NCBI GenBank assembly: GCA_020847395.1
Contig: JADLCD010000044.1
Location: 1-48,835, forward strand
DNA: 48,835 nt
Direction of reading: 5' to 3'
DNA from: Chitinophagaceae bacterium
GTDB taxonomy: Bacteria > Bacteroidota > Bacteroidia > Chitinophagales > Chitinophagaceae
How positions within the stretch are numbered: position 1 is the first letter of the stretch; every line of letters starts with the position of its first letter. Under the pieces are notes generated by a model. It was not told the origin of the DNA, did not search any database, and worked only from the letters and a program-made list of their open reading frames with translations. The translations under genes were made by a program, and so were the position numbers. This document shows positions 22,588-34,382 of the stretch, piece by piece.

Positions 22588-23361
22588 TCATCGCCGCACA
22601 CGTGTTATATATGGCTCTCTGGCAACAGTTGTTTTTACAGGATCAAAAAACTTTATTAGTAAAAGACCTGCAATAAAGCCCCCGATATGTGCAGCATAGG
22701 CCACTCCCCCACCATCTTCTCCGCCAAGCATACCCAACCCGCTTATTACCTGGAAGGCAATCCATAAACCCAACGCAAGAACAGCAGGAATAGAAACCCT
22801 GAATATTAAAAGAAATGCAGTTACTCTTCTGGTAGGAAATAATAAGAGATATGCTCCTAACACACCGGAAATAGCACCGGAAGCACCAAGACTTGGCACC
22901 AACGAATTTTGATTAAGCATTAATGTAGAAAACACATGACTAAATGAAGCGATAACCCCGCAAAGCAGGTAAAATACAAGATACCGCAAATGCCCAATCC
23001 TGTTTTCAATATTATCGCCGAATATCCATAAGTACAGCATATTACCCGCAAGGTGCGCCCAGCCACCATGCATAAACATAGAAGTAAGTAAAGTGAAATA
23101 TACAGATACCGGCGTAGGCTGCAAGCCCGGCATTTCAAACTGTCGCCCCGTATTGGGATCAAAAATTAACTGCGGTTCTGTAATAATATCATTACCTGTA
23201 AGAATTTCTGCAGGCACTGTAGAAAAAGCGTACGTAAAATTAAGATTGGTTCCTCCGCCTTGTAAAAAAATAAACGCCAGGATATTCAGCGCTATCAACA
23301 GGTAATTTATATAAGGCGTTATTGTTCTGTCTGAATTATCATCACCAATAGGTAGGAGCAT
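22588..23361 (-). CDS. Rhomboid-family intramembrane serine protease
   Basis: 257 residues with six to seven membrane segments. The HGGWAHLAGNMLYLWIFGDN motif supplies Asn107 of the oxyanion hole. The catalytic Ser161 is in GASGAISG and His225 in AYAAHIGG, so the catalytic dyad is intact and this is likely an active protease and not a pseudoprotease. It resembles the secondary rhomboids with a long extracellular loop between the first two helices (about 45-85). It cleaves membrane proteins within the bilayer; substrates are unknown. It is followed by the DUF4105 gene 55 bp after its stop. Confidence 0.9.
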   Translation of the reverse strand: MLLPIGDDNSDRTITPYINYLLIALNILAFIFLQGGGTNLNFTYAFSTVPAEILTGNDIITEPQLIFDPNTGRQFEMPGLQPTPVSVYFTLLTSMFMHGGWAHLAGNMLYLWIFGDNIENRIGHLRYLVFYLLCGVIASFSHVFSTLMLNQNSLVPSLGASGAISGVLGAYLLLFPTRRVTAFLLIFRVSIPAVLALGLWIAFQVISGLGMLGGEDGGGVAYAAHIGGFIAGLLLIKFFDPVKTTVAREPYITRVRR

Positions 23362-23417
23362 AGCAACTATTTATCATGGAAAGATAATCAATTATGCATA
23401 CACCCTATAAGTCTATT

Positions 23418-23559
23418 TGTTCTTAGGGTGCATCCCAAATTTTCGCACCATTATTCCCCTCTCCACAGAGTGGCGAGGGGATAAAGCCTGCCTGCCGGTA
23501 AGCAGGGGGTGAGAGTAAAATAAATATGAAGCGAAAATTTGGGATGCACCCTGTTCTTA
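23418..23559. mobile_element. 126-bp MITE with 8-bp target-site duplication
   Basis: The terminal inverted repeats 23426-23446 (begins GGGTGCATCCC, ends TTTTCGC) and 23531-23551 are perfect 21-bp reverse complements. An identical 8-bp TGTTCTTA lies immediately outside each end (23418-23425 and 23552-23559), the mark of insertion. The 84-bp interior has its own imperfect hairpins, TCCCCTCTCCAC/GTGGCGAGGGGA and CCTGCC/GGCAGG-like segments, and encodes nothing. I know of no family name for it. The rest of the 23362-23729 spacer has only short repeat-like phrases (GCCTGAAAGGCT, ACCCTATACCCTACACC) and no gene. Confidence 0.88.
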
Positions 23560-23729
23560 CACCAGGGCAAAAGCATTAAAATTATTGAAGCCTGAAAGGC
23601 TGATATTATTATAAAATCATTTCATCCCTTTGGACTGCTAAAATTCTTTATAGTAGTTAATACAAATTTTTAATGCGCCTGCGCTAACCTTCTACAGTAA
23701 ACCCTGCACCCTATACCCTACACCTTTTT

Positions 23730-25070
23730 CTACAATACCTTCTTCGTATCTGTCATAAATACCCGCGTACTCACCGTGTAGGTTCCGCCATTAATATCTT
23801 TATATTTCAAATCAACATAAAAAGCACGGTATCCTGATGCAGGCAATGGTTCCATAACTTTTATCTTGCTTTTACCTGATATTTTCAAGTCTTTACTTGT
23901 CCATTTATCATTGCGAAAATCTGTATCAGGCGAGTCAGCTTGCCAAACGATTACATCTGTCAACTCATCTTTAGTAGATTTAATATTCAGCTTTACTGCT
24001 TTTTTAGCAACAGTAGTTGTCCAATCGCAAGCCGGGTAAGTTGCATTTTGCAAAGTTGTGCCAAAAAACGCGCTGAGCGCTTCTGTTGCCTGCTGCCCGC
24101 CACCAAGGTCATGACCTGCATTCGGCACATAGTGTAGCAAGTTTTTTCCGGGAATACTGTCAAGATAATTTTTGATATTATCCACCACCCAATATTCATC
24201 ATTAGTACCCATAAAAATGAGCTTGGGCATGGTTAACGTTTTTCTGTAGGAGTACGGATCAACCATTGTACTAACCGCCATACCGTTTTCTGTTTTAGCA
24301 GTTTGAGGTATACCAAGTTTTACATAATCTTCAATCTGCACACTATAGCCACCCAAGGCCTTAATCTGGTAATCAAGGCTAACGGGCATATTCAATACAT
24401 CAATTACCATTGGCGCAATAGCCTGTGCTCTTTTATCATTGGCGCCGGTGAGCCAGGTTGTCCAGCCTCTTTTTGAAGCGCCGGAAATTACAAACCTGTT
24501 TACCGGTTTATTTAATTCTTTGCTTGAAAATTGCTGTATAGCATCCATTGCTTTTACCGCGCTTTTAACCATGGGAAAGAGTAACGGCCATGAATAATCG
24601 CCGTCTTTCTTAAAGTTGTGCAGTGTAAAAGATATAAGTGCGTCTTCGGTAAGATCATCAAACAAAGGCTGGTTAGGCGTTTGCCTCAGTACCGCAACAA
24701 TCGCTTTATTTTTTTCTGCTACATGAGCCATTCTAATATTTTGCTTGTCATCACGTCCGCTCCAATTAGGCATTCCATCTTTTAAAGAACCGCCAGTAAT
24801 AAATAACAAAGCGCCGTCATATTTATTTTCTTTTGGAACGAGTAAGGTAAGCTGGTGCTTCCACACAATATCTCTCCACTTTTGTGAAGTGAGCAATAAT
24901 GCATATGCTTTTGTATCTCCAATATCATATGTATCTTTTACCTCCCAGCTAAAAGTATTATCGCCATTGTTAAGATAACTTTGTAATGCAGTTGCCGGCG
25001 TTATGGCAGCCTGCGCTAAAATCAACTGACTATATACTATTACCAATCCTGCTAACAAATATTTCTTCAT
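23730..25070 (-). CDS. PhoPQ-activated pathogenicity-related (PqaA-type) alpha/beta hydrolase, exported
   Basis: 446 residues with a signal peptide (cleavage near LILAQA). The PqaA family pattern is clear: VKDTYDIGDTKAYALLLTSQ, the GASKRGWTTWLTGANDKR nucleophile-elbow segment (GASKRG), then IKALGGYSVQIEDY and a histidine-bearing VPNAGHDLGGGQQATEALS. The family is named from a Salmonella gene but is widespread in environmental bacteria, and its name implies no virulence role here. It is the last gene of the unit that starts with a lipocalin-like protein and SusC/SusD, so it likely acts on material those proteins capture. Confidence 0.88.
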   Translation of the reverse strand: MKKYLLAGLVIVYSQLILAQAAITPATALQSYLNNGDNTFSWEVKDTYDIGDTKAYALLLTSQKWRDIVWKHQLTLLVPKENKYDGALLFITGGSLKDGMPNWSGRDDKQNIRMAHVAEKNKAIVAVLRQTPNQPLFDDLTEDALISFTLHNFKKDGDYSWPLLFPMVKSAVKAMDAIQQFSSKELNKPVNRFVISGASKRGWTTWLTGANDKRAQAIAPMVIDVLNMPVSLDYQIKALGGYSVQIEDYVKLGIPQTAKTENGMAVSTMVDPYSYRKTLTMPKLIFMGTNDEYWVVDNIKNYLDSIPGKNLLHYVPNAGHDLGGGQQATEALSAFFGTTLQNATYPACDWTTTVAKKAVKLNIKSTKDELTDVIVWQADSPDTDFRNDKWTSKDLKISGKSKIKVMEPLPASGYRAFYVDLKYKDINGGTYTVSTRVFMTDTKKVL

Positions 25071-33994: not shown

Positions 33995-34382
33995 AATTCA
34001 ATTTTTTAATAAGTCGAACAAAGTAAGAATACAAAAATACTATATAGCTTATTGTATGCCAAAATCATGGGTGTATTTCAAATTTTCGCATCCTGTAAAC
34101 ATTCATCCAATTCAAATCCTGATGCTGGCGGGATCGCAACAACGGCGAAAGTGTGTTGATTTTAATGTCAGCAAAATTCATTGGATTGGAGGCTTATTAC
34201 AAAGTAAACCAGTGAAACAAAAGGGGATATTACTTTCGTAACCTGAATTTTGTATTAAAATTACTTTCGTTCTTTGAACAGGAGAAACTACATTTATTAT
34301 TTGTATGCTTTTGTTGATTATCTGACGAAATACTACCATTTCACCCTATAAAAATTTAGTTTTGAAAACCCAATAATAGATT
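33995..34382. other. 388-bp spacer with a decayed MITE end
   Basis: 34069-34089 (GGGTGTATTTCAAATTTTCGC) matches 18 of 21 bases of the MITE terminal repeat found at 23426 but has no partner end nearby. Open frames in both strands continue through this stretch for up to about 60 codons but show no signal, family or sensible start, so I call no gene. Confidence 0.4.

Follow-up and report, generated by a model that had tools for sequence, protein, structure and literature searches.

How did a short stretch of DNA with perfectly matching inverted ends come to lie between two genes of a Chitinophagaceae bacterium, and which enzyme moved it? The window analysed here, meaning the whole stretch of 48,835 bp, is the entire contig C45 of a 5.17 Mb genome in 190 contigs (hereafter the host). 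The sequence at 23418-23559 is a genuine, complete MITE, of a kind already known and of a new family. We put the probability at about 0.92 that it is a non-autonomous type II MITE moved in trans by an ISKra4-like DDE transposase of the Mutator superfamily.

Structure of the element

The MITE itself is 126 bp long (23426-23551, plus strand) and lies between two identical copies of the 8-bp target-site duplication TGTTCTTA (23418-23425 and 23552-23559, both plus strand). Its left terminal inverted repeat of 21 bp, GGGTGCATCCCAAATTTTCGC (23426-23446, plus strand), has a perfect reverse complement at the right end (23531-23551, minus strand), and the interior between them measures 84 bp. A first-pass annotation had reported perfect 21-bp repeats, an 8-bp duplication and an 84-bp interior at these coordinates; on re-reading, all of this proved exact. 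Read directly on both strands, the window contains TGTTCTTA just twice in 48,835 bp (expected 2.1), each time abutting an element end; the count alone is unremarkable, and the evidence lies in the fact that both occurrences abut the element. For the 21-mer, the chance count in the window is 0.00 (mean of 100 shuffles). The window also holds, at 34069-34089, a lone end-like sequence, GGGTGTATTTCAAATTTTCGC, with 3 mismatches and without a recognised partner.

Inside the terminal repeats, an inner hairpin, CCCCTC...GAGGGG (23456-23480, no strand assigned), emerges from folding and from alignment alike; its inner 19 bp run the opposite way from those of the copies on host contigs C133, C52 and C111. 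A neighbouring 20-bp segment (23487-23506, plus strand) is missing from the 106-bp copies on C133 and C52 and occurs in a diverged form in a decayed copy on C2. A single strand of the whole element folds far better than shuffled sequences do (z -8.97, DNA parameters). Two of its six reading frames are free of stops, with 41-42 codons each, which in so short an element does not point to a gene. An Rfam scan of 23000-24000 returned nothing near threshold; the best match, MIR815, scored 19.8 bits against a threshold of 63 and was set aside as chance.

The element is intergenic, and both neighbouring genes lie on the minus strand. It sits 5' of a gene for a rhomboid-domain protein (PF01694; 22588-23361) and 3' of a gene for a PhoPQ_related family protein (PF10142; 23730-25070), the latter designation being the family's name only.

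Copies of the element in the host genome

Further copies exist, as a genome-wide count proposed in the first-pass annotation established: the 21-mer occurs at 79 places in the host at no more than 3 mismatches, against 0 for the same sequence read backward, and a degenerate end, GGGTGCATYYMAAATTKTCGC, occurs at 87 places at no more than 1 mismatch. Pairing of ends at up to 6 mismatches was carried out on one stretch per place, that is, on 65 of 77 host stretches, the window counted and the overlapping stretches (L003, L004, L012, L043, L063, L070, L079 and L084-L088) left out; the analysis of contig ends used the same set. It yielded 24 elements of 83-674 bp, and a 25th paired element, on C52, was found through its similarity to the window element. 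Most ends in the examined host stretches had no recognised partner.

Exact target duplications flank 18 of the 25 paired elements, the window element included (8 bp long in 13 cases, 9 bp in 5), and the remaining 7 were kept in the set. Duplications were scored at both lengths, since a rule of 8 bp only misses the 9-bp cases. When left and right flanks were re-paired at random, 2000 shuffles gave 0 exact duplications. The duplicated 8-mers have a G+C content of 25% versus 39% in the surrounding stretches. Only 1 of 17 insertions falls inside an ORF of at least 100 aa, as compared to 74% for positions drawn at random from those stretches; this test covered 17 of the 18 duplication-bearing elements, one being left out for a flank below 500 bp.

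The family includes different subfamilies. Eight pairs are exactly 110 bp long and, by eye, seem much closer to one another. At C60:327-376 (L005 327-376), exactly 8 bp (ATTTATTA) separates the ends of two elements that belong to different subfamilies and point apart, as if one element had inserted at the duplication of the other. Elements of about 600 bp (C71:28335-28932, and others on C177, C42 and C146) have internal repeats with further matches in other parts of the genome, which suggests nested or captured repeats.

Empty sites in related genomes

We queried 11 congeners with 17 joined flanks to find sites that lack the element. In congener G005 the junction was spanned by 4 of the 17 queries, cleanly by two of them. 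At the C133 site, G005 reads across without the element and has AAAATTTT once; at the C64 site, occupied in the host by a 110-bp copy, it likewise reads across and has TTTTCTTT once. The other two junctions (C52 and C158) are too diverged to be read, and the C52 query aligns across the join in six further congeners at 68-72%.

For the window site, the two flanking genes are adjacent in nine of the 11 congeners, with a gap of 111-351 bp; this comparison leaves out G011, where the stretch compared does not show the second gene, and G007, where its match is on another contig. None of the nine syntenic gaps contains an end-like sequence at up to 5 mismatches, and the gaps are too diverged for the exact junction to be read. 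The expectation that empty sites in relatives would carry a single copy of the duplication thus holds for C133 and C64 in G005, while the window site offers nine end-free gaps with an unreadable junction. Where the first-pass annotation had named a lack of other copies and of empty sites as what would speak against it, we found many copies and two precise empty sites.

Two further sites deserve mention. The rhomboid/PhoPQ_related gap of G009 (L133) contains a 21-mer that, judged by eye, departs from the end at 7 positions and adjoins sequence resembling the interior of another subfamily; judged from its sequence, this is perhaps the remnant of a separate, different insertion. A 110-bp MITE at host C63:18516-18625 (L162) and a 717-bp element on G005:C4 (L161) have related ends and sit at almost the same intergenic site, directly after a terminator-like hairpin; in these two species they are apparently independent insertions.

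Age of the window copy

The copies on C133 and C52 are both 106 bp long, with duplications AAAATTTT and CTAATTAA, respectively. The C133 copy, which has 21-bp ends identical to those of the window copy, is the next best host match to the 126 bp, at 77%; with its hairpin turned, it differs at 4 of 106 aligned positions plus the 20-bp gap. The host assembly yielded no near-identical sister of the window copy. Recent movement had been proposed from the perfect repeats. The window copy has 0 differences in 29 compared bp (21 of the end and 8 of the duplication), which by the rule of three is compatible with up to ~10% divergence. Because the assembly holds no near-identical sister, and the nearest complete one has a turned hairpin, a 20-bp gap and four substitutions, the perfect ends are weak evidence of youth.

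Autonomous relatives and the parent type

The first-pass annotation had suggested that the element could be used to find its parent, and it did lead to a parent type. When genome contigs were scanned for exact matches to the 21-mer, five stretches came up, and of these L032 alone has paired ends around a transposase. In the others, L033-L036 (L034 and L031 are one place), a search at 6 mismatches showed only short elements or single ends. L032, from a Chitinophagaceae metagenome-assembled genome, is a complete insertion sequence of 1267 bp with an 8-bp duplication, TTTTTAAA. Its left end is identical to that of the window element (21/21 bases) and its right end matches at 20/21. The full-length transposon sharing the terminal repeat and making 8-bp duplications, which the annotation had called for, therefore exists, in a genome of the same family; none was detected in the host assembly.

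L032 has two ORFs around an A9C run, a short ORF A and a 338-codon ORF B. The best family for ORF B is NF033572 (ISKra4; E 2.2e-59, 201.7 bits against a curated NCBIfam cut-off of 205); ORF A joined to ORF B scores 203.8 bits (E 5e-60), just below that cut-off, and the transposase of a second relative, L038, scores 189.5 bits against the same model. The L032 transposase exceeds the cut-off of PF06782. On these profile scores its transposase appears closest to the ISKra4 family.

Five distinct insertion sequences combine two such ends with 8-bp duplications (L032, L039, L100, L101 and L113; L102 is L032 again and was counted once). L099 has both ends and no duplication, and L038 has one clear and one weak end and no duplication. 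These autonomous relatives are 1252-1276 bp long, and all seven have two ORFs around a conserved A9C run, located some 230-242 bp from the left end. Relative to ORF A, ORF B is in the +1 frame in 6 of the 7; in L039 the relation is -1 and ORF B itself is broken. The seven aligned transposases have in common the invariant acidic residues D106, D179 and E288 (L038 numbering), which would fit the predicted DDE catalytic residues.

With L032, the window element has in common only 21-22 bp at the ends. Since its likeness to the autonomous element is confined to the ends, it is, on the strength of that comparison, a type II MITE as defined in PMC10969869, which describes type II prokaryotic MITEs as sharing only their ends with an autonomous element. 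Might it instead be a type I MITE, that is, a lost insertion sequence shortened by internal deletion, with a remnant of that parent as its interior? No parent was found in the host, hence the interior of the true parent is unavailable for comparison. However, the interior shares with the seven autonomous elements of the group only short words of 12-19 bp (best E 0.03), and the inner hairpin has a 26-bp match (92%) at two places on C100 that lie apart from any such element. We regard the type I origin as improbable. As to end types, that of the window's MITE type matches L032, whereas that of the 110-bp type matches L099.

Search for a transposase in the host and in related genomes

The transposase encoded elsewhere, to which the first-pass annotation ascribed the movement, has its counterpart only in other genomes. 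In the 190-contig host assembly, searches with the L032 protein, the L038 protein, the ISKra4 family model and a profile of the seven sequences detected no ISKra4-like transposase. The sole host match to the ISKra4 model, on C88 at E 3e-4, is an IS256 transposase. Elements at contig ends were also considered as halves of an autonomous element and rejected (tblastn of seven ORF pieces against the 65 host stretches, best E 0.60). The seven-sequence profile does find matches in five of the 11 congeners, the best at E 5e-186 and the weakest at a marginal 0.014. Repeated insertion sequences break assemblies, and accordingly several contigs from other members of the family show transposase pieces in their first 1-377 bases; the host contigs that end inside such elements carry no such pieces. 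We consider the absence of an ISKra4-like transposase from the host likely, not proven.

Could the parent be the IS256-family insertion sequence on C88 itself? Its transposase frame (L037 26-1222, 398 aa) is open and lies near the contig edge; IS256 also makes 8-9 bp duplications and is placed in the same superfamily in PMC3942029. Yet the 21-mer is not found at up to 7 mismatches in 1981 bp at C88, a span that includes about 760 bp past the stop codon and in which the left end may be cut by the contig edge. Moreover, the elements that do have the matching end carry ISKra4-like transposases, not IS256. A parent on C88 is thus very improbable.

In a survey of 294 genomes from the family, 15 gave a transposase match, fragments being counted as well, 35 had the ends and 10 had both. 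Ends are present in 10 of the 15 genomes with a transposase match versus 25 of the 279 without (odds ratio 20, P-value 3e-7, uncorrected for relatedness), a co-occurrence that is partly trivial because an insertion sequence carries its own ends. At least 5 ends are found in 12 genomes; 3 of these have a transposase match and 9 have none. Hence, the host is not the sole genome with ends and no detected enzyme. One might speculate that the host and its congeners harbour a varied, orphan community of MITEs without a resident transposase, re-mobilised only by a passing ISKra4-like insertion sequence, with MITE subfamilies matching different insertion-sequence lineages; we offer this scenario as doubtful.

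Proposed mechanism of movement

Under the preferred reading, an element moved in trans by an ISKra4-like transposase, the enzyme would recognise the 21-bp ends, and the 126-bp DNA would be inserted into AT-rich intergenic DNA through a staggered cut of 8-9 bp, the repair of which would produce the target duplication. We infer that a transposase of the L032 type, or of a lost relative, moved the window copy. The biochemical route sketched here is likewise a presumed one; for this superfamily, a circular intermediate has been suggested in the literature. An insertion sequence of this sort, missing from the present assembly, was probably resident in the host at one time or pays it visits. That the element is instead an immobile regulatory hairpin, a REP-like or terminator-like repeat, would agree with its strong folding and its position between two same-strand genes, but the exact duplications at 18 of 25 sites, the empty sites of two other copies in a relative and the syntenic gaps of nine congeners, free of end-like sequence, make this the least probable account and rule it out as a full one; an effect on the neighbouring genes is possible.

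Relation to known systems

The window element is short (126 bp), non-coding, bounded by inverted ends that match at 21/21 bp and flanked by a duplication, all features of type II MITEs. Like the type II prokaryotic MITEs treated in PMC10969869, it lacks a transposase, resembles its autonomous relative at the ends only and belongs to a family of many copies; it differs from them in its ISKra4-like parent type and in that no autonomous partner was detected in the same assembly. According to PMC3942029, elements of the superfamily have ends of 18-39 bp that carry a terminal C, their duplications measure 8 or 9 bp, and the ISKra4 family and the related two-ORF ISMich2 group belong to p-MULT 4 within the Mutator superfamily. 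The 21-bp ends with a terminal C and the 8-9 bp duplications found here fall within those published ranges, whereas the window element has no gene, unlike those insertion sequences (PMC3942029). The autonomous relatives resemble the ISMich2 group in having two ORFs (7/7). However, ISMich2 is described as needing a -1 frameshift between its ORFs (PMC3942029); since the relation is +1 in 6 of the 7 relatives, we did not file them under ISMich2.

Our literature search, which had most subscription journals outside its reach, found no paper on MITEs of ISKra4-type elements. Cardinium belongs to the same phylum as the host. Its MITECca01, as presented in PMC9769881, is like the host family an abundant, mostly intergenic bacterial MITE, but it is about 240 bp long, derives from the IS982 family and coexists with intact IS982 copies in the same genome, which sets it apart from the host family. 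The sections of PMC9208149 consulted describe no ISKra4-type MITE.

Significance

An abundant repeat family of the host's genus can now be assigned a parent type. The repeats may also explain part of the contig breaks in the draft, as 20 contig ends lie at a distance of a few hundred bases from such an end, either inside it or past it. Overall, the finding raises the question of how a MITE population this large persists without a detected resident transposase, and the system would allow a test of how long such a population lives after transposase loss.
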